Virus record (IMG/VR): IMGVR_UViG_3300047319_000670
Coordinates: 1 to 37,131 of that record
Strand: one strand, 5' to 3'
DNA: 37,131 nt
Origin: a virus
This document shows positions 1 to 30,297 of this stretch, one piece after another. The notes below the pieces were generated by a model. That model had not been told where the DNA came from. It saw only the letters and a program-made list of their open reading frames with translations, and did no database searches. The stretch's first letter is position 1; each line of letters opens with the position of its first letter. The position numbers and the translations under genes were made by a program.

Positions 1-127
1 GCGCCTCCTACATCGAGGACCAGGACGAGCCAGAGGACCAGAAGAACGTTCCGGTCATGGAGAACGCGCTCGCGATCCTCGCAAGCCTTGTGCCCGTCGA
101 GGTGGCGGACACGGAACCCCCCGAACC
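1..127. repeat. Terminal direct repeat, left copy
   Basis: Bases 1-127 are identical to bases 37005-37131. The copies lie exactly at the two ends of the window, and the open reading frame that runs off the right end continues in the same frame here. This is the usual sign of a circular or circularly permuted genome assembled with a k-mer overlap. A real 127-bp virion terminal repeat is less likely because it falls inside a structural gene. The unique genome length is then 37,004 bp. Confidence 0.95.
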
Positions 128-1805
128 AGACGACGAGGAGGCTTCGAGCTCCACCGGCACGGACGTGCAGGAGCGCGAAACCGAAACGCCCGTCGGGACG
201 ATTGAACTCTCTGCGCCGCCACACCCGGAACTGCCGCGCCGTGGCACCCAGAGCGAACCCACAAACAATGGAAGGAAAGCTATGAGTGAGAGCATCGAGC
301 AGATGCGGGCGCGGCAGGACGAGATCCGCCGGGAGCTCGAGGAGATCGCCGCTGACTTCACCGGCCACGTCCTCGACGCGAGCGCGGGCGCCCGCTGGGA
401 CGACCTGACCGGAGAGGTCGACGACCTCTCCACCAGGATCGCAGAGACGGAGAAGCGCGAGCAGTACCTCCGCGACCGGTTCGACAAGGACAGCGTCGAC
501 ACGCCGGACATCGCCCCGGAGCGCCGCGGCGAAGGCACCGGCGTCTACGTCTCCAAGCGGCAGGCCCGCGACAAGACCCCGGAGAACGTGTTCGACATGG
601 GGGCCTACCACGGCCAGGCCCGCGACCAGGGCCAGCTCCTCGACCTGTACCGCGACGGCGCACGGCGGGCGCTCGAGACGTTCCACTACCCGCACCCAGA
701 CGGCGACGAGGCGAAGATCAACGGCCACATCGAAGGGCTCCTCAACACGGTTGACAGCCCGACGAAGGAGTTCGCGCGCCGCGTCCTCACCTGCGGCTCG
801 GAGACGTACCGGCGGGCGTTCTGGAAGACGATGACGAACCAGTCGCTCACCAACGACGAGCAGCGGGCGTTCTCGCAGGCGCAGATGGAAACCCGCACCG
901 AGGCGATCGGACTATCAACCGGCGGCGGTATCGCCCCGATCCCGATCCAGGTCGACCCGACCGTCATCCTGACCTCGAACGGCGTCCAGAACCCGATCCG
1001 CCAACTCGCGAGCGTCGAGACGACCACGTCGTACATCTGGCAGGGCGTCACGTCGGGCGGCGTGGTGGCGCAGTACCAGGCCGAGGCTGTGACGATGCTG
1101 AACAACGCCGGCACGATGATCGCGCCGACGATCCAGCCCGAGCGGGTCACGTCGTTCATCCCGTTCTCATGGGAAGTCGGCCCGGACTGGGGCTCCTTGG
1201 AGTCCGCCCTGGCGATCCAGGTGCAGGACGCGAAGGACCAGCTCGAAGCAACGAAGTTCGCTCTGGGTGCGGGGCACGGCTCGAACGAGCCGCGCGGCAT
1301 CCTGATCGGCGCCGGCACCGTCATCGCGACGTCGAGCGGAACCACCGGCACAGGGTTCGCCCTCACCGACGTTTATTTGGTCGAGAACGCGCTCCCGCCC
1401 CGGTACCTGCCGAACGCGAAGTGGGTTGCGTCGGTCGGGGTGTTCCAGAAGATCCGCGGGTTCGGGTCTTCGCTGGGGCCGCAGGCGTGGGCTGACAGCC
1501 TGATCGTCGGCAACCCGCCGACGCTGCTCGGCTACCCCGCGTACAAGTGCTCAACGATCGGCACCAGCATCTCCGCCGGCTACGTGGCGGGGGCGATCTG
1601 GGGTGTGTTCGGTGACTGGTCGCGGTACAAGATCATCGACCGGCTCGGCATGTCGATCCGGGTCATCCCCGACCTGTTCGGCGGCACCGCCGGCATCCAC
1701 TTCCCCACCGGCCAGTCCGGCCTGGTCGCGTACTGGCGCAACAGCGCCGACGTGCTCGACTCGAACGGGTTCCGCGTCGGGACGATCTCGAAGGGCGTCA
1801 ACTAG
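3..1805 (+). CDS. HK97-type major capsid protein, C-terminal part of a protease-capsid fusion ORF
   Basis: This is the 3' part of an ORF that starts at 36338 and crosses the contig junction in frame, giving one 823-residue protein (protease about 1-190, acidic Pro/Glu-rich linker about 190-316, capsid from about 317). The capsid part starts with a charged coiled-coil delta-like scaffold segment (MSESIEQMRARQDEIRREL), then a typical HK97 gp5 fold: N-arm near GLSTGGGIAPIP, E-loop and P-domain region, and the C-terminal pattern GQSGLVAYWRNSADVLD common in phage_capsid proteins. An internal ATG at 282 with a good Shine-Dalgarno sequence could make a separate 507-residue capsid protein, close to the usual size with a delta domain. 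Seen: the unbroken frame. Known: in HK97 relatives protease and capsid are usually separate neighbouring genes. Inferred: both fused and free capsid protein may be made. Confidence 0.96.
   Translation, partial: ASYIEDQDEPEDQKNVPVMENALAILASLVPVEVADTEPPEPDDEEASSSTGTDVQERETETPVGTIELSAPPHPELPRRGTQSEPTNNGRKAMSESIEQMRARQDEIRRELEEIAADFTGHVLDASAGARWDDLTGEVDDLSTRIAETEKREQYLRDRFDKDSVDTPDIAPERRGEGTGVYVSKRQARDKTPENVFDMGAYHGQARDQGQLLDLYRDGARRALETFHYPHPDGDEAKINGHIEGLLNTVDSPTKEFARRVLTCGSETYRRAFWKTMTNQSLTNDEQRAFSQAQMETRTEAIGLSTGGGIAPIPIQVDPTVILTSNGVQNPIRQLASVETTTSYIWQGVTSGGVVAQYQAEAVTMLNNAGTMIAPTIQPERVTSFIPFSWEVGPDWGSLESALAIQVQDAKDQLEATKFALGAGHGSNEPRGILIGAGTVIATSSGTTGTGFALTDVYLVENALPPRYLPNAKWVASVGVFQKIRGFGSSLGPQAWADSLIVGNPPTLLGYPAYKCSTIGTSISAGYVAGAIWGVFGDWSRYKIIDRLGMSIRVIPDLFGGTAGIHFPTGQSGLVAYWRNSADVLDSNGFRVGTISKGVN
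270..284 (+). promoter_or_regulatory. Internal Shine-Dalgarno and ATG for free capsid protein
   Basis: GGAAGG at 270-275 sits six bases before ATG 282-284, in frame with the surrounding fusion ORF, and the ATG opens directly onto the coiled-coil scaffold segment of the capsid protein. That is where a separate capsid gene would be expected to start. It may allow many capsid subunits per fused protease, which a phage capsid needs (hundreds of subunits, few proteases). Confidence 0.65.
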
Positions 1806-1886: not shown

Positions 1887-2078
1887 GTGTTCATAGCAAC
1901 AAGGTCGTTCACGGCCAACCTCACCAGGGGCGAAGTCCACGTCCAGGAGGGCGTCACGTTGGTCGACGACAGTGACGAGCTCCGCGTCCGCTACCCCGAA
2001 TGCTTCACCAAGGCACGAGCGGAGCGGCCGGAGGTGGAGTCCGCGACGGCGGCGCCGGGGGAGAAGCGCGCCCGATGA
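1887..2078 (+). CDS. Small protein downstream of capsid gene, unknown
   Basis: A 63-residue protein with a GTG start at 1887 chosen because a strong purine-rich Shine-Dalgarno stretch (GGGAGGCGGGAG) lies just before it; the in-frame ATG at 1833 would fall inside the hairpin and lacks one. Short proteins with a beta-rich N-terminal half and a charged tail (here KARAERPEVE) commonly follow the capsid gene in actinophages, without a known function. Its TGA overlaps the ATG of the next gene (ATGA), so the two are likely translationally coupled. Confidence 0.7.
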   Translation: MFIATRSFTANLTRGEVHVQEGVTLVDDSDELRVRYPECFTKARAERPEVESATAAPGEKRAR

Positions 2079-3259
2079 AGATCATGTGGAGCTCGAACGC
2101 CCCCTGGTCGACGTCAGGGTACGGGCAGCAGACCGCGATGTTCGTTCCGCGCCTTCAAGCGTTGGGCCACGAGGTCGCGATCTCCTGTTTCTTCGGTTTG
2201 GAGGGCGGCTGTATCGAGTGGAACGGCATCCGCTGCTACCCAACCGACGCATCACGGTTCGGCAACCACCGTTTGGGCGAGTACGTCCAGCACCACGCCG
2301 AAGGCGACCGAGACAACTGCTTGGTCATCACATTGCAGGACGTGTGGTGTTTGTTGGCCGGCGTGCAGAACTTCAAGGACATCCGGTTCGCGTCATGGTG
2401 CCCGGTCGACCACGACCCCATCCCACCCATGGTGCTGGACTTTCTGCGGGCGGTGGACGCGAAGACGATCGCGATGACGAGGTTCGGACAGAAACGGTTC
2501 GAGGAGGAGGGCATCGAAGCGATGTACGTCCCCCATGGTGTGCCGACCGACGTGTTCCTTCCGCAGCCCGAGATGCGTTCGCAGTACCGGCAGGGGCTGG
2601 GGATCCCGGATGACGCTTTCGTGGTTGGGATGGTCGCGATGAACCAAGGCTTGCCGCCCCGGAAGTGCTTCCCGCAGGTGTTTCAGGCGTTCAAAACATT
2701 CCACGACGCACACCCCGAGGCCGTCCTCTATCTGCATTCGGAGGTGATGGGGATCAATAACGGCGTCAACCTGCCCGAGCTCGCACGCCAGGTAGGTGTC
2801 CCCGATAACGCGCTCAGGACAAGCGACCAGCTGAGCCTGCATTTGGGGATTCCGCAGGCGATGATGAACGGCGTCTACAACACCTTCGACGTCCTCGCGT
2901 TGCCGTCGATGGGCGAAGGGTTCGGCATCCCGCTCATCGAAGCGCAAGCAACGGGATGCCCGGTCATCACGACGGACTGGACATCAATGACGGAGCTCTG
3001 CGGCGCCGGCTGGCTAGTTGACGGCGAGAAGTGGTATGACGCCACCCAACGCTCCTTTTACAAGAACCCGACCGTTGGAGGCATTTACGCGGCGCTTGAG
3101 TCGGCCTATGACGGCGCGAGGGACTGGGAGTTACGCGAGAAGGCCCGCGAGTTCGCGCTGGGCTACGACGTCGACACGGTCATGGACGAGCATTGGGTTC
3201 CCGTGATGGACGAGTTGGAGAAGGTGGAGCGGGTTCCGCCGCTGCGGTTGGCCGCGTGA
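2075..3259 (+). CDS. GT-B glycosyltransferase, family 4-like
   Basis: A 394-residue retaining-type group 1 glycosyltransferase. It starts MKIMWSSNAPWSTSGYGQQ, the N-terminal Rossmann strand with the glycine-rich acceptor loop usual for GT4, and carries the donor-site EX7E motif as E281-x7-E289 in GEGFGIPLIEAQATGCPVIT. It should move a sugar from a nucleotide-sugar donor to a glycan or protein acceptor in the cytoplasm. The ATG at 2075 overlaps the upstream stop; the longer in-frame start at 2000 would overlap that gene. Two further glycosyltransferase-like genes follow with 4-base overlaps, so the three act as one unit. Their position between capsid and connector genes suggests virion glycosylation, which is known for some mycobacteriophages; the acceptor here is not known. 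Confidence 0.9.
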   Translation: MKIMWSSNAPWSTSGYGQQTAMFVPRLQALGHEVAISCFFGLEGGCIEWNGIRCYPTDASRFGNHRLGEYVQHHAEGDRDNCLVITLQDVWCLLAGVQNFKDIRFASWCPVDHDPIPPMVLDFLRAVDAKTIAMTRFGQKRFEEEGIEAMYVPHGVPTDVFLPQPEMRSQYRQGLGIPDDAFVVGMVAMNQGLPPRKCFPQVFQAFKTFHDAHPEAVLYLHSEVMGINNGVNLPELARQVGVPDNALRTSDQLSLHLGIPQAMMNGVYNTFDVLALPSMGEGFGIPLIEAQATGCPVITTDWTSMTELCGAGWLVDGEKWYDATQRSFYKNPTVGGIYAALESAYDGARDWELREKAREFALGYDVDTVMDEHWVPVMDELEKVERVPPLRLAA

Positions 3260-3900
3260 CGCTCGCGATCGTCACCGCGTGGCTCAACCACCCCGAGCTC
3301 GAACCGGAGTACTTCGCAGCCATCGAAGCAGGCAAGCCAGATCAGTTGGTGATCGTGGACGACTTTTCCGACGAGCCGTTGGCGTTCGCGGCGTTGCGGA
3401 TGGACGCCAGGACGGGGTTCTGCGGCGCCAACAACGCCGGACTCGCCTTGGTCGAAACGGATCATGTGCTCTTCCTGAACAACGACATCTCCGCTCTGCG
3501 GGCAACGTGGCTGGACGAGATCCGCGCCCAGATCGAAGAAGGATGCGTCCTCGGCCCGCTACGCAAAGACCCCCACGGCAACGTCGACGACATCCCGTAC
3601 CCGTACGTCGACGGCTGGTGCATGGGAATGGTCACCCAGGAGGCGCGGGACATGGGCGGCTGGGACGTCAGCTACGACGAGGCAGGCCCATCCTACTTCT
3701 CCGACAACGCCTTCAGCTTCCACGCCCGCACCCACGGCATGACACTCAAAAACCTCCGGCCGGGCCTGATGCACAAGGGCGGGCAGACGGGCGGTGCAGG
3801 GCCGGCGTTCGAGCAGGCACTGGCGATCAACGGGCCGCGGTTCCAGCTGCAGGTTCGTGGGGATCAGGCTCATCAGGACGCTTTGATCTCACGCGGATGA
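3256..3900 (+). CDS. GT-A glycosyltransferase, family 2-like
   Basis: A 214-residue family 2-like glycosyltransferase. Visible motifs are the nucleotide-binding strand LVIVDDFSDE (D35-D36), the conserved GFCGANNAGLA loop (residues 54-64) and the DxD-equivalent LFLNND (D77) that would bind metal and nucleotide sugar; WCMGMVTQEA to WDVSYDE matches the acceptor/base region of rhamnosyl-transferase-like enzymes. It is short, without membrane segments. The GTG start at 3256 overlaps the previous stop (GTGA), and its own stop overlaps the ATG of the next gene, so all three are coupled. It probably extends the glycan begun by a neighbour; donor and acceptor cannot be read from sequence. Confidence 0.9.
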   Translation: MTLAIVTAWLNHPELEPEYFAAIEAGKPDQLVIVDDFSDEPLAFAALRMDARTGFCGANNAGLALVETDHVLFLNNDISALRATWLDEIRAQIEEGCVLGPLRKDPHGNVDDIPYPYVDGWCMGMVTQEARDMGGWDVSYDEAGPSYFSDNAFSFHARTHGMTLKNLRPGLMHKGGQTGGAGPAFEQALAINGPRFQLQVRGDQAHQDALISRG

Positions 3901-4898
3901 GGTTCGCGATCTTCGACCCCGAAGGGAAAGGCGCCTACCTCCGCCAACGTCTCATCAGCGACGGCCACACCCCGGTAGAGCGCATCGACGAAACCGACCT
4001 GCTGCTCGTCGATTGCGACTGGGCGTGGGCGCATCCGCGGCCCGCGATGATCCAGGCAGCCAAGGACGCTGGGGCAACCGTGGTGCTGTACCCGCACGCT
4101 GGGTTGCCGACGTGTTTCGTGTATGACGGTTTGACGGAGCCCGACCCGAACGTGTCGCTGCGTTTGGAGCACGGCCCCGGGCATCTCGAGCTCGGCGGCG
4201 GCGGGCTGGATCAAGAGGCCGTGGGATGGCTGTTCAGCCCCACCGCCCCATTCCAGGCTGTTGAGAGCCCGGTGAGGGTGCTGTTCGCGCCGATGCATCC
4301 GAACATCGAGGCGCTGAACGCGGGCACGAACGGCCACGACCCCGCACCATCGTTGAACCAGGAGCTTTACCGGCAGCTGCTGGGCCTCGGCCTCGAGTTG
4401 ACGGTTAGCCTTGTCGCGTCGCCGCACCGAAACGGCGTCTGGCCGCACCCAAAGGCGACGTTAGTCGCGAACGACCGCATGCAGTTCCAGCACAGCTACC
4501 AGCTCATCCAGCAAGCCGACGTCGTCGTCGCGCACGGCACCATCGCGGCTGCCGCGGTGGCCTGCGGGAAGCCAACCGTCATGTTCGGGGAGCAGGACAT
4601 GGGCGATTACATCGACGGTAGCTACCAGTACGCCGTCCATGCTTCGGAGTGCCGCGGGTCTGTGCGGTTCCCGCTGATGTGGGACAGCGGGAACCGCACA
4701 GACCTTCACTCACTGATCGCGCAAGCTTGCGTGGGAAGCGACGAGGTTGAGGCGTGGCGCGCCAAATGGGTGGGATCCGACGGCACCAAGGCCGCTTTGG
4801 GGGCGTTGAAACGTCTAGTGGGGGATGTATCGTTCCCGGTGAAGACGCGGGACGTGACGATCGAGGGTGCGACCGCGACCGTGAAAATAACCACATAG
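3897..4898 (+). CDS. GT-B-fold glycosyltransferase-like protein
   Basis: A 333-residue protein starting at ATG 3897 inside the previous stop; earlier in-frame starts lie within the GT2 gene. The N-terminal half is a Rossmann-like domain (MRFAIFDPEG, TDLLLVDCDW, GATVVLYPHAG); the C-terminal half carries VVVAHGTIAAAAVACGKPTVMFGE, the donor-domain pattern of GT-B transferases and CDP-glycerol or polysialyl-type transferases. It could be the enzyme that uses the CMP-sugar implied by the gene set at 25-31 kb, but no specific CMP-sugar transferase motif is clear. It was compared by eye with PseG hydrolases, also GT-B, and the PseG N-terminal histidine and GGxD motifs are absent. The final 17 residues (from DVTIEGATATV) form a separate beta hairpin. 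Confidence 0.72.
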   Translation: MRFAIFDPEGKGAYLRQRLISDGHTPVERIDETDLLLVDCDWAWAHPRPAMIQAAKDAGATVVLYPHAGLPTCFVYDGLTEPDPNVSLRLEHGPGHLELGGGGLDQEAVGWLFSPTAPFQAVESPVRVLFAPMHPNIEALNAGTNGHDPAPSLNQELYRQLLGLGLELTVSLVASPHRNGVWPHPKATLVANDRMQFQHSYQLIQQADVVVAHGTIAAAAVACGKPTVMFGEQDMGDYIDGSYQYAVHASECRGSVRFPLMWDSGNRTDLHSLIAQACVGSDEVEAWRAKWVGSDGTKAALGALKRLVGDVSFPVKTRDVTIEGATATVKITT

Positions 4899-4908
4899 GA
4901 GGATCGGG

Positions 4909-5343
4909 ATGCCGGTCACCGCAGGGTTCTACGGGTTGGGGATGAAAGCGATCGCCTGCGGGACTGTCGACCTGCAGGGAGACACGTTCGGCGCGATGCT
5001 CACCGTCGGCTACACCGCGAACACGGACACCGACCGTTGGCGCTCCGACGTCACTACCGAAACGATCGGCACCAGCGGCTACACCGTTGGTGGCGCCACA
5101 CTCACGGGGAACACCGTGACGTATGACGCAGCGTCGAACGAGACGCGGTGGACGTTCACGAACCCGTCCTGGACGCAGGCATCATTCAGCGCTAACCAGC
5201 TGGTGGTGTACAAGCGCAACGGCGGCACCTCGTCGGCGGACGAACTCGTGATGTGGGTCGACTTCGGCGGCGCGAACACAGTGACGCTCGGAACTTTCAC
5301 GTATCAGGTGCCGGCGACGGGCGCGGGCGCGATCACGGTCTAG
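4909..5343 (+). CDS. Beta-rich virion structural protein, putative decoration
   Basis: A 144-residue protein with an AGGAGG Shine-Dalgarno sequence 6 bases before ATG. It follows a pattern common in phage structural clusters: LTVGYTANTDTDRWRSDV, then SGYTVGGATLTG, then a beta strand run ending in LVMWVDFGGANTVTLGTFTYQVP. Members are thought to be small beta-sandwich virion proteins; exact function is unknown. The protein at 15403 has the same general plan. Position among capsid-proximal genes suggests head decoration, but this is inference. Confidence 0.8.
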   Translation: MPVTAGFYGLGMKAIACGTVDLQGDTFGAMLTVGYTANTDTDRWRSDVTTETIGTSGYTVGGATLTGNTVTYDAASNETRWTFTNPSWTQASFSANQLVVYKRNGGTSSADELVMWVDFGGANTVTLGTFTYQVPATGAGAITV

Positions 5344-5405
5344 CCTTGTCTGGATCGTTGTCTGCATGATCGCGTACACCCGCACCTAACACGAGAGGAC
5401 ACCGC

Positions 5406-5714
5406 ATGGCCGATCTGGCAACCATCACCCTTGTCTCCGAGACGATCGACGACGCCACGTTCACCGTCGAGTATGTCGGGAAGCCCGCGCACGGCCATCA
5501 GTCCGACCCGCGCTATTCGCTCTGGCTGAGCTTCGAAAGCGACGACGCGGACGGCACCCGCAACGGACTCGCTGAGGTTCCCGTGAACCAGTGGGTCAAC
5601 AACACCTCTGTCGTCACTGTCGCCAAGCCTGGCGGAGGTCCTACCTTCCAGGCGTTTGTGTGGCAGTTCCCCGACCCGTCAACGCCAGTCTCGAACACCT
5701 CGTCGTTCAGTTAG
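5406..5714 (+). CDS. Small beta-rich structural protein, unknown
   Basis: A 102-residue protein with AGAGGA before its ATG. It alternates beta strands with polar turns and has no Cys, signal peptide or membrane segment. No family is recognised. It ends one base before the GTG of the next gene and sits between two probable virion proteins, so it is likely a small capsid or decoration component. The 62 bases before it hold only its ribosome site. Confidence 0.7.
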   Translation: MADLATITLVSETIDDATFTVEYVGKPAHGHQSDPRYSLWLSFESDDADGTRNGLAEVPVNQWVNNTSVVTVAKPGGGPTFQAFVWQFPDPSTPVSNTSSFS

Positions 5715-6959
5715 GTGGCGCGCCTGCAACAAGCTGGCGCAGAAATCGACGCCGGATTAGGTGGGTCAGGGGGACAGACTCAGAACGCTGGTCCTGATGG
5801 AACAGCGGGCGGTTCGGTATCTCAGGACACCTCTGTGTTTCGAAGCGGAGCCGCATCCTGGAAATGCGACTCGACCGTCTCGAATAACGCGGCCAGCGTT
5901 ACAGCACCTACACCGACATTTACGGACGGAAGAAGCTATTGGGCGAGAATTTACCTCAACGCCTCCGCCGCCCCGACGGCAGCCGCAGCCGTACTGCTTC
6001 TCGGAGGGTCCTCCGTAACGCAGATCGTTGCCCGTCTACGTACTGACGGTGCACTCGAACTTCTCGTCAACAACGTCGTTCAAGGCTCCCCCTCGGCCAC
6101 AATAAACGACGGGACATGGCACCGAGTAGAACTAAAGGGAGTCGCCACCGCAACGACAACCTGGACCGCCGCCGAGCTTCTACTCGATGGAACGTCCGTC
6201 GCGACATGGTCGGGAAGCGTTGCGCGAACCAACGGTGCCGGGTTTGGATGGCTCAGCTCTCCTGGTGCAAGCAAGGTTATCAACGCCGACGACTATGCAC
6301 TCAATGACTCCACAGGATCGGTAAACAACGGCTACCCCGGCAGCGGCAAGGTCGTGCTTCTGCTTCCGACCGTGGACAGCGCGAGAGGGAACAACTGGAC
6401 GAACGACGCCGCGGGCACCAGCAACCTCTTTCAGGCTGTAGACAACACGCCGCCCGCAGGGATAGCCGACACCACCAGCAGCACCGGGCTCCACCAGATA
6501 CGAAACGCCGCGAACACCGCCAACTCCAGCTACGACGCCACCATGACCACCTACACCGCCGCCGGGGTCGCGGCAGCGGACACGCTCAACTGCGTCATCC
6601 CGTGGACCGTTACCGCCGCACCCGTAAGCACCAGCGCGAAGCAAGGAACAGTTGGTGTCGCATCGAACCCGGCGATCACGAACATCGCCCTCAGCGCTAC
6701 CGGCACATCCGGTGCCTTCTGGGCGGGGTTCGGCGCGGCGAACTACGGCGGAGGCTGGAAGTTCTCGCCTGGCACTATCACCGAAACCCCGGCCGTTACC
6801 CTAGGAACAGCCCCGGTCATGCGGATCACGCAGGTCACCGCAAGCACCCGGATAGCGATGGTGTGCTTCATGGGCATCTATGTCGACTACACGCCCGCGG
6901 CGGTCGTGGCGACGGTAGCCGCACCTATAGTCAATATGGCGACATACACCCCGGCGTAG
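5715..6959 (+). CDS. LamG-like (jelly-roll) virion protein
   Basis: A 414-residue protein with GTG start directly after the previous stop. The first half has the concanavalin/LamG pattern: SGAASWKCDS, RSYWARIYLN, LRTDGALELLVNNVVQ, DGTWHRVELKG, and AELLLDGTSVATWSG, followed by an ADDYALND strand. The second half is Ser/Thr/Asn/Ala-rich beta sheet ending in MGIYVDYTP. Such domains bind carbohydrates or act as decoration or receptor-binding modules on virions. By eye the gene is less GC-rich than its neighbours, suggesting recent acquisition. High Ser/Thr content makes it a possible acceptor for the nearby glycosyltransferases (inference). Confidence 0.82.
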   Translation: MARLQQAGAEIDAGLGGSGGQTQNAGPDGTAGGSVSQDTSVFRSGAASWKCDSTVSNNAASVTAPTPTFTDGRSYWARIYLNASAAPTAAAAVLLLGGSSVTQIVARLRTDGALELLVNNVVQGSPSATINDGTWHRVELKGVATATTTWTAAELLLDGTSVATWSGSVARTNGAGFGWLSSPGASKVINADDYALNDSTGSVNNGYPGSGKVVLLLPTVDSARGNNWTNDAAGTSNLFQAVDNTPPAGIADTTSSTGLHQIRNAANTANSSYDATMTTYTAAGVAAADTLNCVIPWTVTAAPVSTSAKQGTVGVASNPAITNIALSATGTSGAFWAGFGAANYGGGWKFSPGTITETPAVTLGTAPVMRITQVTASTRIAMVCFMGIYVDYTPAAVVATVAAPIVNMATYTPA

Positions 6960-6969
6960 GAGGGAACGG

Positions 6970-7419
6970 ATGGCGAGGTTCTCTGCAGGCGTAAGAGCTA
7001 CAGCATCGGCAGGAAGCCTAATCCCGATCATCTCCGTGTTCCCCGGCGGCGTCGTTGGCGGATCACTCCGGGAAATCGGCGTTTTTAACACGTCAGGCAC
7101 AGCATTCGAGATCAGACTCGCCAGGATCACCGTCGGCCCGGGCACATTGGGCGCCGCGTTGGCGGAGGCGTGCGTCACGAACCCGGGCGCCGTGGCGGCC
7201 TGCCAGGCGTTCACCACCAGCACCGGAGGCACACCAACGTTCGTGGATCTCGGCTACCGGACTGTGATTGGCCCGCAGGCCGGCGCCGGGGTGATCTGGA
7301 CGTTCGGTGACGTGGGGATGATCCTTCCGCCTACGGTGGGTACATTGAACGGGGTGTGCGTCATTCCGGAAACGGGTGCTTCTCAGATCGCCCAGACTTA
7401 CGCTGTCTGGGACGAGTAG
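6970..7419 (+). CDS. Putative virion protein, unknown
   Basis: A 149-residue protein with AGGAGG just before ATG. It is rich in beta strands and small residues (MARFSAGVRATASAGS, GGVVGGSLREIGVFNTSGTAFEIRLARIT) and ends in IAQTYAVWDE. The pattern of an N-terminal arm followed by a jelly-roll resembles small phage capsid-associated proteins, but no family can be named with confidence. Coupled position between the LamG-like gene and the repeat protein supports a virion role. Confidence 0.72.
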   Translation: MARFSAGVRATASAGSLIPIISVFPGGVVGGSLREIGVFNTSGTAFEIRLARITVGPGTLGAALAEACVTNPGAVAACQAFTTSTGGTPTFVDLGYRTVIGPQAGAGVIWTFGDVGMILPPTVGTLNGVCVIPETGASQIAQTYAVWDE

Positions 7420-7432
7420 GGGTTAGGGGCCG

Positions 7433-8803
7433 GTGGCCCAGCAACAACCTACCCACCCAGTATCACGCATTGACTCCGCGGCGATAGCCGGACCGTCAAG
7501 GTTCTTCCCGGTTCCGCCAGTCCCGCCGGTCGCAAGCCCAGATGTCACCATCACCGGCGTCCGCGCACTGGCGGCCGCGACGGCGAAACCGGGCACGGTT
7601 TTCCTGTCGCCGCAGCGCGAGCGGGCCGCAGCGACCGCAACAGCGAAGCCGAACGCGGTTCTCCTCAAGCCAGGCTCGCAACGCGCAACAGCAACGGCTG
7701 CGGGGAAGCTCGGTTCGGTCAAGATCGACGGTGGCGTCGTCGGCGCCCGCGCCACCGCCACGGCAGCCGGGAAGCCGAACAGTGTCCTTCTGAAGCCCGG
7801 GTCGCAGCGCAGCGAGGCGACAGCCACTGCGAAGCCGAACGCGCTCCTGCTCAAGCCTGGATCTCAGCGCGCCGCAGCAACAGCTACCGCGAAACCTGGC
7901 GCTGTTCAGCTCTCACCGGCCCGGGAGCGCGCAACCGCGACTGCCACGGCGAAGCCGAACAGTGTCCTCCTGATCGTCGCGAAGGAACGCGCCCTCGCCA
8001 CCGCTACGGCGAAGCCTGGGACGCTGCTGATCCTCGGAAACGTCGTCATCACCGGCGTCCGGGCCACCGCGACCGCGACGGCCAAGCCAGGAACGGTGTT
8101 CATCAGTCCGGCGCGAGAACGGGCCACAGCCACCGCAACAGCCAAGCCGGGTGCGGTCAAGCTCGCACCCGCCGTCCAACGGGCCTCAGCCACCGCGACA
8201 GCCAAGCCGAACAGTGTTCTTCTGATTCCTGCGAAGGAGCGCGCACTCGCCACCGCGACGGCGAAGCCCGGAACGGTCGTGACGGTCAACGGCGGGAACG
8301 TCACGATCGTCGGCATCCGCGCCAACGCGACAGCCGCCGCGAAGCTCGGCTCGGTCAAGATCGACGGCGGGGTTGTCGGGGTGCGCGCAACCGCAGCCGC
8401 GGCGGCGAAACCTGGTGCCGTCCAGCTGAGGCCCGCCTCTCAGCGCGCCAGCGCAACCGCGACAGCTAGGCCGAACGCGAACCTCATCAATCCGGGGACG
8501 CAGCGCGCCGTAGCGACAGCAGCAGGGAAGCTCGGGTTCGTCCGGGCCGACTGCACGATCCTTGGTGTCCGCGCGCTCGCAACGTGCACGGCCCACCCCG
8601 GGCCGAGGCCCATCACCTCGTCCGCAGGGCCTGTCCTGACGAGCAGGACCAGGACGAGGCTCCCGGGGAGCGTGACGATCAGTGATCTTCCTGGTGGGGC
8701 GACACGGACGATAACCGGAGCCGCAGTTACGATTGCGTCAACCAGCAGCGGCCGCGCGAAGGCGCGGATGCGCACCGGCAAAACCTACGCAAACACACCC
8801 TGA
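7433..8803 (+). CDS. Ala/Thr/Lys-rich 20-residue repeat protein, fibrous virion protein
   Basis: A 456-residue protein with GTG start. After a Pro-rich N-terminus, residues 44-399 consist of 17 repeats of about 20 residues of the form RATATATAKPGAVxLxPAxE; four units have a longer turn with a valine-glycine end (VVITGV-like). The C-terminal 57 residues are Arg/Thr-rich and non-repetitive. There are no membrane segments. The alternating Ala/Thr strand and the KPG/KPN turn suggest a regular beta fibre or a chain of small beta modules, with many Thr residues facing one side. A role as head or neck fibre, adhesion module, or O-glycan scaffold is inferred from position; no function is known to me. 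Confidence 0.85.
   Translation: MAQQQPTHPVSRIDSAAIAGPSRFFPVPPVPPVASPDVTITGVRALAAATAKPGTVFLSPQRERAAATATAKPNAVLLKPGSQRATATAAGKLGSVKIDGGVVGARATATAAGKPNSVLLKPGSQRSEATATAKPNALLLKPGSQRAAATATAKPGAVQLSPARERATATATAKPNSVLLIVAKERALATATAKPGTLLILGNVVITGVRATATATAKPGTVFISPARERATATATAKPGAVKLAPAVQRASATATAKPNSVLLIPAKERALATATAKPGTVVTVNGGNVTIVGIRANATAAAKLGSVKIDGGVVGVRATAAAAAKPGAVQLRPASQRASATATARPNANLINPGTQRAVATAAGKLGFVRADCTILGVRALATCTAHPGPRPITSSAGPVLTSRTRTRLPGSVTISDLPGGATRTITGAAVTIASTSSGRAKARMRTGKTYANTP
7562..8629 (+). repeat. Tandem 60-bp coding repeats (about 17 units)
   Basis: The coding DNA repeats with a basic period of 60 bp, diverged at third positions but with nearly identical longer blocks. For example, a block starting at 7705 recurs at 8341 with few changes, and the unit near 7955 recurs near 8203. 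This points to expansion by unequal recombination of multi-unit blocks rather than single-unit slippage. Confidence 0.85.
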
Positions 8804-9150
8804 TGCCCGAGCCCGATTTCAGCATAAAAACCGGTGACACCGCGTCTAGCATCTACGCCACCCTCGAGGACTCCACTGGCGCGGCCGTGAACATTCAGGG
8901 GGCCGCGATCGTGTTCAAGATGGGGCCGATCAGCGGCGGAACACTGTCGGTGGCGGGGACGGCGACGAACGCTCAGAACGGCGCCGGCACCGTCGACGGC
9001 TCCACAGGCGATGTGGTTTACAACTGGGCCGCCGCACCCGGCACAGCGGGGCTCTACGTGTCGGAGTGGGAAGTGACATTCGTGTCGGGCGCGGTGCAGA
9101 CGTTCCCGAACGACGGCTACAACCTCGTCAAAGTAACGGACGACCTGTGA
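8803..9150 (+). CDS. BppU N-terminal-like Ig-type structural protein
   Basis: A 115-residue protein whose ATG overlaps the previous stop. It shows the pattern of small phage beta-sandwich domains related to the N-terminus of upper baseplate protein BppU: IKTGDTASSIYATLEDSTGAAVNIQGAAIVFKM (strand, polar turn, strand), then DGSTGDVVYNW and GLYVSEWEVTF and a closing strand TFPNDGYNLVKV. In many phages such proteins lie next to head-tail connector or baseplate genes and form virion Ig-like modules. Its stop overlaps the GTG of the connector gene. Confidence 0.78.
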   Translation: MPEPDFSIKTGDTASSIYATLEDSTGAAVNIQGAAIVFKMGPISGGTLSVAGTATNAQNGAGTVDGSTGDVVYNWAAAPGTAGLYVSEWEVTFVSGAVQTFPNDGYNLVKVTDDL

Positions 9151-9755
9151 GCTACATCACGCTGCAGGAGCTGAAGAACAACGCCGAGCTGGTCGGCGTG
9201 TCGTTCGCGGACTACGACGCCGAAATCCACATCGCCGCCGCCTGCGCGGGCATCGACGAATACACGGGCCGGACGTTCACGAGCAGTGTCGGCACCCGGT
9301 ATTACACGCCCGTTGATCGGTGGCACCTCGACATCGACGACGCGATCAACGTGACCAGCGTGATGACCGACTATGACGGCGACGGGACGTTCGAGACGAC
9401 GTGGACAGAGAACACGGATTATGTGCTGGTGCCATTGAACGCGACCGCGAACGGGGAGCCGTTCGACGAGCTGCAGATGAAGCGGTATCCGTATTCGTCG
9501 CACATCCTTCCGATGTGGCCGCGGTCGGTTCAGGTTCAGGGAACGTTCGGCTGGCCCGCCGTCCCGGCACCGATCAAGTCGGCCGCGATGATTATGTCGA
9601 TGCGGCTCCTCCGCAGAGCTCGGGAGGCGCCGTTCGGGATCGTCGGCCTCGGCATCGATAACGTCGCCGTCCGCATCTCGAAGGTAGACCCAGATCTTGC
9701 GTGGCTCGTTGACCCGTTCATCAAAGGCCCCGGCGCCGGGGTGATGATCTCTTGA
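9147..9755 (+). CDS. Head-tail connector protein (gp6-like adaptor)
   Basis: A 202-residue protein with GTG start inside the previous stop. The N-terminal helical part SYITLQELKNNAELVGV, followed by DAEIHIAAACAGIDEYTGRTF, is the hallmark of the gp6/gp15-like adaptor that docks under the portal. The middle is beta-rich (GTRYYTP, TDYVLVPLN), then GWPAVPAPIKSAAMIMSMRLLRRA, the helix seen in this family. In most HK97-like phages it directly follows the capsid gene; here it lies more than 7 kb downstream. Confidence 0.85.
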   Translation: MSYITLQELKNNAELVGVSFADYDAEIHIAAACAGIDEYTGRTFTSSVGTRYYTPVDRWHLDIDDAINVTSVMTDYDGDGTFETTWTENTDYVLVPLNATANGEPFDELQMKRYPYSSHILPMWPRSVQVQGTFGWPAVPAPIKSAAMIMSMRLLRRAREAPFGIVGLGIDNVAVRISKVDPDLAWLVDPFIKGPGAGVMIS

Positions 9756-25061: not shown

Positions 25062-25396
25062 GCCACACCAGCGACGCCCGCCGAGTCATCGCCAGCGCCG
25101 GGGCACGCAAAATGGGCGACTACATCCCTCCCGCCCCGGACCCGAAGGCGAGCATCAACACGGTCACGAAGCAGCTGCACCGCGGCTTCCAGGCCGCCGA
25201 CGTCCGCGCTGAGGTAGCGGCTGCTGTCCGCCATGAGACGATCGGGATCGGCCCCTACACCGCCCGCTGTTTGGTCGGAGGCTGCGGCTGGTACGCAACG
25301 GAGGACTCCACGATGCACCTAACGGTGCTCGCGGAACTGCACCGGAAGTTGATGCACCATTGGGTTGCTGTGGGCCGCTGCCACAGCCTCGCATGA
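25058..25396 (+). CDS. Zinc-finger-like protein before sugar genes, unknown
   Basis: A 112-residue protein coupled at both ends by 4-base overlaps. Its C-terminal half has CLVGGCGWYATEDSTMHLTVLAELHRKLMHHW, a C-x4-C with downstream His residues like a C2H2-type finger used in phage proteins. The N-terminal half is polar. No specific function is known. It separates the DNA methylase from the sugar pathway in the same operon. Confidence 0.7.
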   Translation: MSHTSDARRVIASAGARKMGDYIPPAPDPKASINTVTKQLHRGFQAADVRAEVAAAVRHETIGIGPYTARCLVGGCGWYATEDSTMHLTVLAELHRKLMHHWVAVGRCHSLA

Positions 25397-26349
25397 CAAG
25401 TTTCCTGATCACCGGCGGCACGGGGAGCATGGGCCAGCAGCTCGTCCGCCAACTCCTCGAGAACACCGCTACCGAGCGGGTTTGTGTGTTTAGCCGTGAT
25501 GAGTGGAAGCAGGACGCGATGCGCAACGCAGGATTCACCGATCCCAGGCTGCGGTTTTTCATCGGTGACGTCCGCGACAGGGACAGGCTCCGACGCGCCA
25601 TGCACGGCGTCGACAACGTCATCCACACCGCCGCACTCAAACAGGTCCCAGCATGCGAGTACAACCCGCTGGAGGCCGTCAAGACGAACGTCGACGGCAC
25701 CGCGAATGTCATCGACGCAGCCCTCGACGCCGACGTCGCCAAGGTTTTGATGTTGAGCTCCGACAAAGCCTGCGACCCGGTGAACCTGTACGGCGCGACA
25801 AAGCTCGTGGCGGAGAAGCTGATCGTCGACGCGAACGCCTACGCCGGCACACGGTTCGCTTGCACCCGCTACGGCAACGTCATCTCGAGCCGCGGGTCGG
25901 TGCTGCCGCTGTTCCAGGCGCAGCACGCTGCCGGATCCTCACTGACGGTAACCGACCGGTACATGACACGGTTCGTGCTCACGTTGGAGCAGGGCGCAAG
26001 GTTCGTGTTGGAGAGCCTCGAGCGGATGCAGGGAGGCGAGATCTTCGTGCCGAAGATCCCGGCTGTGAGCGTCAGCACGATCGCGGAGGCAGTGACATGG
26101 CCCGAAAACGCGAGGGTGATCCTGATGGGCGCCCGCCCCGGAGAAAAACCCCACGAAACCCTGGTGTCTGAGCATGAGGCTTCCCGCACCACGGACGAGG
26201 ATGATTGCTATGTGATTCGGCCTGTCCCCGCTGTCCCAGGTGTCCCCGACGGGTTCTCCTTCCGTTCGGCTGGCGGTTCACCATCGCGCGGTGCACCGGA
26301 GCGCCTAGACGTGGATGGGTTTCGGTTGCTGGCAGGGATGGCCGCATGA
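25393..26349 (+). CDS. pseB: PseB-like UDP-GlcNAc 4,6-dehydratase (5-inverting)
   Basis: A 318-residue SDR enzyme closely matching PseB: NAD(P)-binding GGTGSMG (8-14), FSRDEWKQDAM, FIGDVRDRDRLRRAM, VIHTAALKQVPACEYNP, LSSDKACDPVNLYGATKLVAEKL (with Y-x3-K) and TRYGNVISSRGSVLPLF, then RMQGGEIFVPKIP. It makes UDP-2-acetamido-2,6-dideoxy-L-arabino-hexos-4-ulose from UDP-GlcNAc, the first step of pseudaminic acid synthesis. Length is usual apart from a Pro/Arg-rich C-terminal addition of about 45 residues. ATG 25393 overlaps the upstream stop. The next gene overlaps its stop and encodes the step-2 aminotransferase. Confidence 0.93.
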   Translation: MTSFLITGGTGSMGQQLVRQLLENTATERVCVFSRDEWKQDAMRNAGFTDPRLRFFIGDVRDRDRLRRAMHGVDNVIHTAALKQVPACEYNPLEAVKTNVDGTANVIDAALDADVAKVLMLSSDKACDPVNLYGATKLVAEKLIVDANAYAGTRFACTRYGNVISSRGSVLPLFQAQHAAGSSLTVTDRYMTRFVLTLEQGARFVLESLERMQGGEIFVPKIPAVSVSTIAEAVTWPENARVILMGARPGEKPHETLVSEHEASRTTDEDDCYVIRPVPAVPGVPDGFSFRSAGGSPSRGAPERLDVDGFRLLAGMAA

Positions 26350-27065
26350 GCCGAGATCCGCGCCGCGCCTACCGTGTCGTTGACGCTTTCGAGGCGGAGC
26401 TGTGCGACTACACCGGAGCCCCCTATGCGGTCGCGACGAACTCGTGCACGGCGAGCCTTCTGCTCGCCCTCACATGGGAGAGGCTGAAGAACGGCCACGA
26501 AGCAGTGGAACTCCCCACACGGACATACATCGGGGTTCTTCAATCGGCACTCAACGCCGGCTACAGCATCGAATGGAACCCGGAGCCTTGGGATCATCTA
26601 TACGAACTGCTTCCAACGAACGTTTTCGACTCGGCCCGCAGCATCGCGCACGGCATGTGGAACCGCGGAGACTGGTCAGGAACATTCGTCTGCCTGAGCT
26701 TCCATGTCGAGAAGCAGCTGCGAACTGGTGGCGGAGCGATCATCACAGATAACGCCGGTGCCGCGGACTGGTTCCGGGCGGCACGCATGGACGGACGCCC
26801 TCCCGGCTCACCGATCGAGCAGTCGGTGTTCCCCGGCTGGCATTTCCCGATGGACCCGACGTTCGCCGCCGCGGGTCTGAACGTCCTGTCGCGGTGGAAC
26901 GACAAAGGCTACTCACCCGAGCCGTTGGAACCGACTGTCTACCCGGATCTGTCGCTGCTGGACTTCTCGAACAGCCAGAACGTCGCGTCCTCGAACCCCT
27001 CCGGCGCGGTCCCGGACGCGATGAGCGAAAGCTCGCTGGAAACCCTGAAGGCGTGGCTGCCGTAA
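26346..27065 (+). CDS. pseC: PseC-like short DegT/StrS aminotransferase
   Basis: A 239-residue protein with a DegT/DnrJ/EryC1/StrS pattern: FEAELCDYTGAPYAVATNSCTASLLLAL at the PLP phosphate site, VELPTRTYIGVLQSALNAGYSI, a DSARS segment in the place of the usual DAAHS, and LSFHVEKQLRTGGGAIIT, where the Lys should bind PLP. It is far shorter than the usual 370-400 residues, having lost most of the C-terminal domain. Following PseB with a 4-base overlap it is expected to aminate C4 of the keto sugar. Whether the short form is active is unknown. Its last 127 bases overlap the opposite-strand methylase gene. Confidence 0.82.
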   Translation: MSRDPRRAYRVVDAFEAELCDYTGAPYAVATNSCTASLLLALTWERLKNGHEAVELPTRTYIGVLQSALNAGYSIEWNPEPWDHLYELLPTNVFDSARSIAHGMWNRGDWSGTFVCLSFHVEKQLRTGGGAIITDNAGAADWFRAARMDGRPPGSPIEQSVFPGWHFPMDPTFAAAGLNVLSRWNDKGYSPEPLEPTVYPDLSLLDFSNSQNVASSNPSGAVPDAMSESSLETLKAWLP

Positions 27066-27541
27066 TCCCGCCGCCACAGCATCCCCGGCCGTCCCCGGTA
27101 TTCGACCTCGACGTCGTCGGTGTCGGCGTATTCGATCAGCAGCACCAGCCGCGACGAAACCCGGGTGAGCTCGGACAGCGCCTCGTCCAAATCGTCGGGG
27201 GGGACGTGGATGAGTACGCCGCAGCAGAACACCAACTCGAACTGGCTGGCGCCCCACGGGATGTCACAAACGTCGCCTTCTTCGACGTCCAACCCTTCGC
27301 GTTCCGCGATGAGGCGTGCGTACCCGCCGGGCTCGACACCGCACAACCTGGCCTCGGGGAACAGCGCGGCCAACGCTTTGAGGTTGTGGCCGCGGTTACA
27401 GCCGACCTCGAGCACCGACGCGGGCGCCCTACCGTCAAGCATGGCGGCGAAGCCTTCGACGCGGGTTTCCCACTGGACGGGGTTGCGGTCGGTGTACTCG
27501 ACGCCGAACTGGCCCTGCCACTGCTCCAACGGTGTCCCCAT
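26939..27541 (-). CDS. Pseudaminic-acid-associated SAM methylase (minus strand)
   Basis: A 200-residue class I methyltransferase that matches the pattern of the pseudaminic acid biosynthesis-associated methylase family: EQWQGQFGVEYTDRN at the start, SAM site VLEVGCNRGHNLKALAALFP, GVLIHVPPDDLDEALSELTRVSSRLVLLIEYAD, VEYRGRPGMLWRRDYG and a closing ATFWLFEKS. It is the only minus-strand gene between 22.6 and 37 kb. Its ATG (27541-27539) shares two base pairs with the ATG of the next plus gene, and its 3' end overlaps the aminotransferase gene. It probably methylates the nonulosonic sugar or its precursor. Its promoter must lie inside the plus-strand gene; no strong one is visible. Confidence 0.85.
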   Translation of the reverse strand: MGTPLEQWQGQFGVEYTDRNPVQWETRVEGFAAMLDGRAPASVLEVGCNRGHNLKALAALFPEARLCGVEPGGYARLIAEREGLDVEEGDVCDIPWGASQFELVFCCGVLIHVPPDDLDEALSELTRVSSRLVLLIEYADTDDVEVEYRGRPGMLWRRDYGSHAFRVSSELSLIASGTAPEGFEDATFWLFEKSSSDRSG

Positions 27542-28217
27542 GCCCGCTGACACTACACCCCAGTCCCGATGGGACGCCTTGTATGAGCAGGAGCGGTTCC
27601 GCACTTTCTACCCGTCCGAGCATGTCGTGCGCTTCCTGGCCGGATTGGAGCCGAGAACCTATATGGGCGCCGCCATAGATATCGGATCCGGCGCCGGCAG
27701 ACACTCCTGCCTCCTCGCAGATTTCTATTACATGGTCACCTCATGCGACGCGAGTTCCCAAGCCATCCTCGAAACACGGAAGGCCACCTCCAAATGGTTC
27801 TTTGCCCATTGGCCGTCAAAATCTGTGACATCCGGCCCTGGCCCAAACCGATTCACAGATTTCCACGCTCCGATGACCGCTCTTCCCGTCGCTGATGAAT
27901 CGTTCGATGTCGCTCTCTCCTACGGCGTCTTCTACTACGGCAGCCGCGACGACGGCGACAAGGCCGTCGAGGAAATGCACCGCGTATTGCGCCCGGGCGG
28001 CAAAGGGTTCGTGAACGTGCGCACCGATCGCGACTGGCGAAACCATTACAGCCGCTCCGGCCACCCCGAGGAAGGAATGCCGATGCATTTCCTCGCAGAG
28101 GACGACATCCCGATCGTCTACGGCTCCTTCACCCACATCACGTGGGAGCTAACCGAAACCACTACCCATCAGTGCACCGCCCTGAACAGCGACTGGCTTA
28201 TCACCGTGACGAAATGA
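27540..28217 (+). CDS. SAM-dependent methyltransferase, class I
   Basis: A 225-residue enzyme: RWDALYEQERFRTFYPSEHVVRFLAG start, SAM-binding AIDIGSGAGRHSCLLADFYYMVTSCDAS, LPVADESFDVALSYGVFYYGS, and EEMHRVLRPGGKGFVNVRTD, the methyltransferase 11/25 pattern. It likely methylates a sugar, as its neighbours make one. ATG 27540 lies in the CATG shared with the divergent methylase; an upstream in-frame ORF covers the antisense of that gene and is rejected. The 25 bases after it carry the GAGAGGA ribosome site of the synthase gene. Confidence 0.85.
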   Translation: MPADTTPQSRWDALYEQERFRTFYPSEHVVRFLAGLEPRTYMGAAIDIGSGAGRHSCLLADFYYMVTSCDASSQAILETRKATSKWFFAHWPSKSVTSGPGPNRFTDFHAPMTALPVADESFDVALSYGVFYYGSRDDGDKAVEEMHRVLRPGGKGFVNVRTDRDWRNHYSRSGHPEEGMPMHFLAEDDIPIVYGSFTHITWELTETTTHQCTALNSDWLITVTK

Positions 28218-28242
28218 GGCGACTGGCTGAGAGGATCGCGAT

Positions 28243-29094
28243 ATGAGTTATGGGCCTAATCTGATTCCGAGCATGGCTCCCCCGGAGCCGCGCAGAACCG
28301 TTCATATCGGTGACCGCGAGATCGGCCCGGGTTATCCGGTGTATGTGATCGCGGAGATCGGGTCGAACCATGACGGTGACTTGAACTTGGCGTGCGACCT
28401 GATCGAAACAGCCGCCGCCGCGGGAGCTGACTGCGCGAAGTTCCAGTTTTACCGCGCCGACGAGCTCTACCCCGGGAAGGTTACACCGGGGGCGATCCCG
28501 GACGACTGGCTTCCCGTGCTGAAACGTGTTTGCGAGGGTTCACATGTCGATTTCCTGTGCAGCGTCTTCAGTGGTAAGACGCTCGCGGCGTATCTCGAGG
28601 TTGAGCCTTCGGCGGTGAAGATCGCTTCGCCAGAGGCAACGGATCACGGTTTGTTGGCGTCTGCGAGGCTTTCCGGGCTGCCGGTCATCTGCGCGACCGG
28701 GGCTTGCACTCAGGAGGACGTCGACGCGGTGAGGTATGTGCTTGGCCGCTGCCCGCACATCCTGTTGCATTGCGTGAGCGCGTACCCGGCCGAACCTGAC
28801 GAAATGAACCTCTCAGCGATCCGCGAGATGACCCGACGATATGGCGTCCCGGTCGGGCTGTCCGATCACACCACGGATCAGATCATCGTTCCCGCTCTTG
28901 CTGTCGCCGCGGGCGCGTGTGTCATCGAGAAGCATCTGACCCACGCCGGTCCCTCATCGAGTCCTGACCATGATTTCTCGCTTCGCCCAGTGCCGTTCGC
29001 TCGGATGGTCAAGGACATTCGGTATGCGGAGGCTGTTATGGGTGACGGCGTGAAGCGCGTAATGCCGTCCGAGGACCCGCATGATCGTCGTTGA
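28243..29094 (+). CDS. pseI: PseI/NeuB-like nonulosonic acid synthase
   Basis: A 283-residue NeuB-domain protein: VYVIAEIGSNHDGDLNLACDLIETAAAAGADCAKFQFY, AVKIASPEATDHGLLA, HCVSAYPAEPDEMNLSAI, VGLSDHTTD and VIEKHLTHAG are the conserved blocks around the metal and phosphoenolpyruvate sites. It condenses phosphoenolpyruvate with a 6-carbon amino sugar to give a 9-carbon nonulosonic acid. The C-terminal antifreeze-like SAF domain (about 60 residues) is missing. Position with PseB/C/F/H-like genes favours pseudaminic acid over sialic or legionaminic acid. Confidence 0.92.
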   Translation: MSYGPNLIPSMAPPEPRRTVHIGDREIGPGYPVYVIAEIGSNHDGDLNLACDLIETAAAAGADCAKFQFYRADELYPGKVTPGAIPDDWLPVLKRVCEGSHVDFLCSVFSGKTLAAYLEVEPSAVKIASPEATDHGLLASARLSGLPVICATGACTQEDVDAVRYVLGRCPHILLHCVSAYPAEPDEMNLSAIREMTRRYGVPVGLSDHTTDQIIVPALAVAAGACVIEKHLTHAGPSSSPDHDFSLRPVPFARMVKDIRYAEAVMGDGVKRVMPSEDPHDRR

Positions 29095-29614
29095 CTTAGG
29101 CTGCTACGACCACGGCGGCAAATGGCCGAGCCTGCCCGTGTTGGCGAAGTGGTACAAGCCTGAGCGGATCTTCGGGTTCGACCCTAACCCGCACCTAAAC
29201 GTCCATACTCGCCAGGTTGAAGGCACCCCAGTCAGCTTGTCGCGTAGGGCGGCGTGGACGTATAACGGCCACATCACCTACACCGAACCCCACCTACCCG
29301 GCCGTCACGGCCCGATCGGCGTCGCCCCCCAAGGCCGGGGCGGGTCGTTCAACCCTGGCCGGATCGGGATGATCGGTGAAGGCCCAGACACCGTCCGCTG
29401 CTTCGACTTCTCTCCTTGGTTGGCGAAGCACGGGCCGGCGGTCGTGAAGATGGACATCGAGGGCTCCGAGTACGGTTTGCTGCAGCGCATGATCCGCGAC
29501 GGCACCCACACACTCATCTCAACTCTTCATATCGAATGGCATTTCTACGAGGACGTCGACATCCTGCGGGCGTTGAAGAAGGCGAAGGTGAAGGTGAAGA
29601 CGTGGCTTTACTGA
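29081..29614 (+). CDS. FkbM-family methyltransferase
   Basis: A 177-residue methyltransferase: MIVVDLGCYDHGGKWPS with the glycine-loop start, RIFGFDPNP, and VVKMDIEGSEYGLLQRMIRDG, the FkbM signature, followed by LHIEWHF. FkbM enzymes usually O-methylate sugars. It overlaps the synthase gene by 14 bases and the cytidylyltransferase gene by 13, so it is part of the same translational unit and may methylate the nonulosonic acid. Confidence 0.87.
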   Translation: MIVVDLGCYDHGGKWPSLPVLAKWYKPERIFGFDPNPHLNVHTRQVEGTPVSLSRRAAWTYNGHITYTEPHLPGRHGPIGVAPQGRGGSFNPGRIGMIGEGPDTVRCFDFSPWLAKHGPAVVKMDIEGSEYGLLQRMIRDGTHTLISTLHIEWHFYEDVDILRALKKAKVKVKTWLY

Positions 29615-30297
29615 CCATCGTTCAGGCCCGAACTGGCTCAACGCGGCTTCCCGGGAAGACGCTTCTGAGGATGGGAGGCGCGACGATCCTCGGCCACGTC
29701 ATCGCCCGCCTCCGCATGTCCACAGAGGATTTGGGGCAGATTGTGGTTGCGACGTCGGTGCGTGGCGGCGACAACGCGATCCAGGACGAATGCTCCCGCC
29801 TCGAGGTCGAGTGCTTCCGCGGCCCCGAACACGACGTGTTGCGCCGGTTCCACAACTGCGCCTCCAAATACGCCGCGACGCAGATCCTGCGCGTCACCGC
29901 CGACTGCCCGCTCCTCGACCCGCTGCTCGTTGATCAGTTGGTGCGGCATCAGCACCCTGACGTCACGAGGATCGCCGGCGCACCCAAGGGAGTCGGTGAG
30001 GAGGAGCTGATCACCGCGATCGCGTTGGCGCGGATGCATGAGCAGGCCATCGACCCGTACGACCGCGAGCACGTCTCCACACTCGCGGACCGCGACCCGG
30101 CGTTCCACATCAACTATCTCCACGCCAGCGACACACTGTTCGACCACCGCAACCTACGCCTCACCCTCGACACCCCCGAAGACTGGAACCACCTCAAAGA
30201 ACTCTGGGAGGCGTCAGGCCGAACCTTGTTCGCGATGTCGTCAGACGAGATGCTCGGCCTGATCGACAGCGAACCGTTGCTCGAGCTGCGCCAGTGA
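29602..30297 (+). CDS. pseF: PseF/SpsF-like CMP-nonulosonic acid cytidylyltransferase
   Basis: A 231-residue protein opening with TIVQARTGSTRLPGKTLL, the nucleotide-binding loop of SpsF/PseF-type cytidylyltransferases, then IVVATSVRGGDNAIQDEC, CFRGPEHDVLRRFHNCA, and LRVTADCPLLDPLLVDQLV with the metal-binding Asp. It activates the nonulosonic acid as CMP-sugar, the donor for glycosyltransferases. GTG 29602 is taken because it follows a purine-rich stretch in the preceding gene and fits the family start. Its stop overlaps the next GTG. Confidence 0.9.
   Translation: MALLTIVQARTGSTRLPGKTLLRMGGATILGHVIARLRMSTEDLGQIVVATSVRGGDNAIQDECSRLEVECFRGPEHDVLRRFHNCASKYAATQILRVTADCPLLDPLLVDQLVRHQHPDVTRIAGAPKGVGEEELITAIALARMHEQAIDPYDREHVSTLADRDPAFHINYLHASDTLFDHRNLRLTLDTPEDWNHLKELWEASGRTLFAMSSDEMLGLIDSEPLLELRQ

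Follow-up and report, generated by a model that had tools for sequence, protein, structure and literature searches.

Between its capsid and head-tail adaptor genes, the viral DNA analysed here carries an island that, judging from its sequence, is probably a late-expressed cassette for modifying and decorating the virion, in which a GT4-family glycosyltransferase, likely together with a GT2-like enzyme encoded beside it, would glycosylate an abundant virion protein. Cytoplasmic glycosylation of a virion protein, with a presumed acceptor, is the best explanation of the data. We favour it because of the position, coupling, predicted solubility and constraint of the genes, and because of the reported capsid and tail-tube precedent in mycobacteriophages.

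Gene content of the capsid-adaptor island

The window, that is, the whole stretch analysed, comprises 37,131 bases of 64% GC (IMG/VR viral record IMGVR_UViG_3300047319_000670). A 127-base direct repeat at its ends makes it likely that the window is complete, with a circularly permuted unit of 37,004 bases. A single 823-residue frame encodes both the prohead protease, at 36338, and the capsid protein, and spans the circular join. An actinobacterial host is plausible because the closest named capsids, at 31-34% identity, are from Rhodococcus phages, e.g. REQ1 and Jflix2.

The preliminary description of this DNA placed 7.3 kb between the capsid and connector genes. Indeed, about 7.3 kb separates the end of the capsid gene at 1805 from the start of the adaptor gene (phrog_442) at 9147 (Table 1). 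The accompanying statement that the two genes normally lie close together holds for cultured relatives with this capsid type: the adaptor gene begins 78 bases past the capsid-protease fusion gene in Jflix2, and the connector gene begins 95 bases past the capsid gene in Gordonia phage Eyre. As these gaps are below 100 bases, the approximately 7.3 kb are extra relative to cultured relatives. The statement does not extend to the portal-sharing environmental clade, whose capsid-adaptor intervals are 0.3-6.8 kb and, in record G015, 14.6 kb. Thus, the gap is unusual compared with cultured relatives but not inside the environmental clade, and the varied intervals there indicate that the capsid/adaptor border is a general insertion place.

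Table 1. Features of the capsid-adaptor island and of related regions of the window.
Feature	Position	Strand	Basis
Major capsid protein, HK97 type	57..1805	+	PF05065 1.8e-27; phrog_10; continues protease frame at 36338 (823 aa total)
Small head gene, possibly connector-like	1887..2078	+	phrog_9538 0.003; gene call
GT4-family glycosyltransferase	2075..3259	+	PF00534 42.8 bits (cut-off 26.4); phrog_2170 3.5e-36; EX7E motif
GT2-like glycosyltransferase	3256..3900	+	PF00535 19.4 bits (cut-off 23.3); phrog_1579 3.4e-5; 60% identity in L012
Orphan protein (third gene)	3897..4898	+	54% identity to L012; conserved only there
phrog_644 protein, likely virion surface protein	4909..5343	+	phrog_644 2.4e-22
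Small protein, part of exchanged two-gene module with 5715	5406..5714	+	85% DNA identity, L224
LamG-like jelly-roll protein	5715..6959	+	phrog_14065 1.7e-10; model and fold search; Hiyaa homologue
Protein without assigned function	6970..7419	+	homologue in G015 island
Ala/Thr-rich repeat protein	7433..8803	+	17 units of 20-26 aa; homologue in L012/G003
Conserved gene directly 5' of adaptor	8803..9150	+	phrog_1627 1.5e-4; same place in G003, G015
Head-tail adaptor, downstream border of island	9147..9755	+	phrog_442 1.3e-16
Second phrog_644 member	15403-15792		phrog_644 1.6e-23
Sugar-nucleotide cluster	25393..30734	+	PseB-like dehydratase, short DegT aminotransferase, methyltransferase, NeuB, FkbM methyltransferase, CTP-transferase, GNAT
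DegT-family aminotransferase	26346-27065		239 residues (solved relatives 373-393); PLP lysine motif kept, by eye
Antisense frame between short aminotransferase and plus-strand methyltransferase	26939-27604	-	221 aa; weak methyltransferase match
NeuB-family protein	28243-29094		283 residues; no SAF domain match; like 290-residue PDB chain 6ncs
WbqC-like gene between sugar cluster and terminase	32244-32948		alike in window and L006

The island comprises a small head gene, the GT4 gene, a weakly matching GT2 gene, an orphan gene and then six more proteins. The first four genes are coupled through successive 4-base overlaps. The small head gene, whose homologues adjoin the capsid gene in L012, L006, L021 and L046, also occurs in relatives without GT4. 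In L012 (record G003), the order is shared: capsid, small gene, GT4, GT2, third gene, homologue of gene 4909, repeat protein, homologue of gene 8803 and adaptor.

The preliminary description counted three coupled glycosyltransferase-like genes; the coupling and the GT4 gene are secure. The GT4 product has the two attributes of a CAZy-type GT4 enzyme, a Glycos_transf_1 domain above the Pfam cut-off and the EX7E motif, which is kept in 96 of 96 GT4 relatives. By these attributes, the phage encodes its own predicted glycosyltransferase. The other two genes do not reach this standard. The GT2-like protein falls short of the cut-off for Glycos_transf_2, which the phiPsal1 gene at the same position passes (24.6 bits). 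The third protein belongs to no recognisable family: searches of Pfam, PHROGs, NCBIfam and phage records gave no match, and PDB sequences none that was convincing. An AlphaFold run on a two-sequence alignment yielded no usable fold (pLDDT 37), nor did comparing profiles with GT4 give a convincing result. Judged by eye, its C-terminal half resembles the nucleotide-binding segment of GT-B enzymes, so it is possibly a GT-B-like enzyme. We regard the third gene as real because of its conservation in L012 and its portal-like codon-position pattern of change. Indeed, the divergence of all three genes from L012 matches that of the portal gene in both rate and codon pattern.

Hydropathy analysis revealed no hydrophobic segment above 1.6 in any of the three proteins, which are therefore predicted to be soluble. 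The genes likewise do not correspond to a host seroconversion (gtr) cassette, characterized by a membrane-bound glycosyltransferase and a flippase.

The second half of the island was said to encode six beta-rich proteins, including a LamG-like protein and a 17-repeat Thr-rich protein. The beta-rich description was examined for 5715. The LamG sequence match of this protein is weak (E 0.035) and its AlphaFold model modest (mean pLDDT 57; residues 70-175 mostly 65-83), but a fold search with the model returned the jelly rolls of LamG, pentraxin and thrombospondin-N together with phage LamG proteins, in agreement with the LamG-like label. Such a jelly roll may both carry and bind glycans. The 17 repeat units are exact; the protein, however, is richer in Ala (22%) than in Thr (13%). 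In both the window and G003, it directly precedes gene 8803 and the adaptor; in G015, a different repeat protein occupies this spot.

Positions 5365-6898 of the window, covering genes 5406 and 5715, match L224 at 85% identity across 1.5 kb; the rest of the L224 stretch examined contained no other match to the window. Downstream of the matched module, L224 carries sequence that, by eye, reads as GT2. Homologues of 5715 occur near a probable capsid gene in L226 and, in Streptomyces phage Hiyaa, within the capsid-adaptor interval. The latter phage resembles the window in its 6 kb capsid-adaptor gap, annotated methyltransferase and large 5715-homologous protein, but its island proteins include no Pfam-recognised glycosyltransferase. 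The mosaic pattern of 5406 and 5715 is consistent with an exchange of surface proteins among phages.

Genomic position of the GT4 family

A scan with the single GT4 protein gave no matches; an alignment query of IMG/VR returned at least 570 relatives, of which the best 80 were kept. Among the matches listed, the gene has two homes: of 96 classed relatives, 69 have it after the capsid gene and, unexpectedly, the other 27 have it between the tail terminator and tail-tube genes. These classes include L116, labelled capsid with the capsid gene several kb off; L102 and L121, classed from the downstream adaptor because their contigs begin inside GT4; and six labels set by hand from neighbours (four tail, two capsid). 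In the remaining loci, major head proteins were the commonest PHROG matches among upstream genes. Contigs from bacterial genome bins agreed, e.g. with GT4 after the capsid gene in L201, L204, L211, L214 and L216 and at the tail tube in L203. The tail position characterizes one phage clade (L098, L103, L112, L114, L118, L160, L203 and others). In L203, GT4 is followed by sequence that reads as an FkbM-type methyltransferase.

On a maximum-likelihood tree of the 96 classed GT4 proteins, from which ten unclassable rows were excluded, position changed a single time (support 100; none of 500 shuffles was as low). We count this in favour of a virion-directed GT4, although the tree does not tell functional linkage apart from structural modules being inherited whole over long periods. 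GT4 adjoins diverse capsid types. On the best portal tree, GT4 presence requires at least five gains or losses, just one of which is forced by well-supported branches. Within the portal clade, most members lack GT4, which lies within 2.5 kb of the capsid gene in only 3 of 32 loci; we count this against virion glycosylation. The conserved synteny of GT4 may reflect common inheritance of structural modules.

GT4-bearing intervals supplied 81 proteins, including one GT4, for Pfam analysis, and the matches were mostly glycan enzymes: 27 GT2, 8 GT17 and several methyltransferases and epimerases. The same stretch in GT4-free clade members encodes fibre, Ig-like, esterase and tail proteins with few GT2. 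These glycan-enzyme-dominated neighbours were counted in favour of virion glycosylation. The 14.6 kb island of G015 (L194/L195) contains several genes resembling glycosyltransferases, methyltransferases and epimerases, together with an apparent asparagine-synthetase-like sequence.

Among named phages, Pontimonas phage phiPsal1 and Microcystis phage Mae-JY09 encode a GT4 homologue of 37-40% identity. Its gene comes soon after that of the capsid, ahead of the neck or adaptor genes, and is adjoined by GT2 and methyltransferase genes or by an epimerase-like gene. These phages differ from the window in their capsid types, short islands and lack of NeuB and CTP-transferase.

The genomic position also bears on two other roles for the enzymes. 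Serotype-changing phage glycosyltransferases are known (PMC12619734), and the island's enzymes could similarly modify the host cell surface, e.g. to block superinfection, their position being incidental. We give this little credence: the three proteins have no membrane segment, no flippase-like gene was noticed alongside, and the position among head or tail genes is fixed across 96 relatives. Modification of the phage's own DNA bases is very improbable. Examples of phage enzymes able to glycosylate DNA are cited in PMC12619734; here, however, the genes sit among head genes, and PF00303, the thymidylate-synthase-type hydroxymethylase family, is absent from the genome.

Co-occurrence with the sugar-nucleotide cluster

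The cluster at 25-31 kb resembles the bacterial pseudaminic acid pathway (PseB, PseC, PseI, PseF) in having a strong PseB-like protein, a NeuB-family protein and a CTP-transferase. In contrast to that pathway, it contains no recognised PseG-type protein, its aminotransferase is short, and its proteins miss the equivalog cut-offs: PseB narrowly (383.5 against 407.75 bits), PseC (36.3 against 423.5) and PseI (175.1 against 340.25) by far. The cluster should not be called a pseudaminic-acid pathway because the PseC and PseI cut-offs were failed and no PseG-type protein was found. In L006, the DegT aminotransferase is equally short and in the same place. The sugar-gene region of L006 also has an 81-aa frame (L006:3227-3472) with a hydrophobic N-terminus and a capsid C-terminal-like segment, 44% identical over residues 513-565 of the window's capsid protein.

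The preliminary description joined the two regions into a dedicated system, with donor synthesis in one and transfer and acceptors in the other. On this reading, a CMP-activated nonulosonic acid produced by the 25-31 kb genes would be attached to the virion by the island's glycosyltransferases. The NeuB and CTP-transferase family assignments are clear, and some relatives have epimerase-type sugar genes within their islands. L006 shares both regions with the window, with identical gene order (sugar cluster, WbqC, terminase, portal, capsid, small gene, GT4) and 40-61% protein identity. The L012 contig is cut at the terminase and is silent on the cluster. NeuB also accompanies GT4 in record G073 (L196, 35-4107), where a SAF-domain NeuB beside a thiamine-pyrophosphate enzyme lies directly upstream of scaffold, capsid and GT4; the capsid type differs from the window's.

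We searched 50 whole records, many of them fragments, for NeuB (PF03102); 38 carried GT4 and 12 did not. NeuB was present in 3 of the 38 GT4-bearing records (the window, L006's record and G073), and CTP-transferase only in the window and L006's record. As L006 was originally found through NeuB, the figures excluding it and the window are 1 of 36 for NeuB and 0 of 36 for CTP-transferase. Neither was found in the large or complete GT4-bearing G004 (36 kb), G015 (62 kb), G023 (67 kb), phiPsal1 and Mae-JY09, and the Pfam matches of 21 proteins scanned from G004 included no sugar-nucleotide family. Conversely, 20 other NeuB-anchored viral records contained no true GT4-family member (the top score was 51 bits; the window scores 691). 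The expectation that the regions occur together was thus borne out in L006 but not in these relatives; in one direction, large GT4-bearing phages without NeuB or CTP-transferase, one region does regularly lack the other.

This distribution rejects co-occurrence of the sugar pathway with GT4 as a general rule. Because NeuB and CTP-transferase are rare in GT4-bearing records yet L006 has both regions, the association is a trait of the window's own small lineage. A lineage-specific link is possible, as L006 has both regions and G073 has NeuB with GT4. The use of CMP-sugars is not a generally known property of GT4 and GT2 enzymes. This and the gaps in the pathway, namely the unrecognised PseG-type step and the short aminotransferase, add to the distribution in making the integrated arrangement fairly unlikely. 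It is doubtful, too, that the phage makes its own sialic-acid-like nonulosonic sugar and mounts it on the capsid, the third protein being the CMP-sugar transferase or a missing pathway step. We recognised no paper on phage-made nonulosonic acid among our literature search results. A dedicated two-part donor-acceptor system was therefore an overstatement; a virion-directed glycosyltransferase cassette, well supported by the conserved position, is a reasonable best guess.

Proposed glycosylation of a virion subunit

Virion glycosylation has been reported in mycobacteriophages (Che8 gp110, Corndog gp38, Myrna; Freeman et al. 2023, cited in PMC12363180 and PMC12619734); according to the latter two papers, the modified proteins are the capsid and tail tube. 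Mycobacteriophages thus resemble the present case in encoding their own glycosyltransferases, with targets that correspond to the genes adjoining this GT4 family. They differ in that glycosylation is reported there, whereas here it is predicted from genes. The 16 records with a match to GT4 included no mycobacteriophage, and the GT2 match in mycobacteriophage Job42 was weak (7e-4).

According to the model we propose for virion glycosylation, the cassette was inserted at the capsid/adaptor border, and GT4, probably with GT2, would be produced in the cytoplasm together with the head genes. During virion assembly there, the enzymes would build a short glycan on one of the abundant subunits. The acceptor would most likely be the capsid subunit encoded next door and less likely the LamG or repeat proteins. 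No Ser/Thr-rich acceptor segment was seen in the capsid or tail-tube proteins, which we count against virion glycosylation. The second half of the island would supply exchangeable virion surface proteins. The benefit may be shielding, adhesion or stability.

Virion glycosylation has so far been shown in only a few phages. The GT4-beside-capsid arrangement is shared by dozens of environmental phages of diverse kinds and suggests that they sugar-coat their own particles. The two positions of GT4, at the capsid and at the tail tube, would provide a sequence signature for candidate glycosylated virions among uncultured phages and would predict which subunit bears the glycan. The prevalence of glycosylated phages thereby becomes directly testable in cultured representatives.
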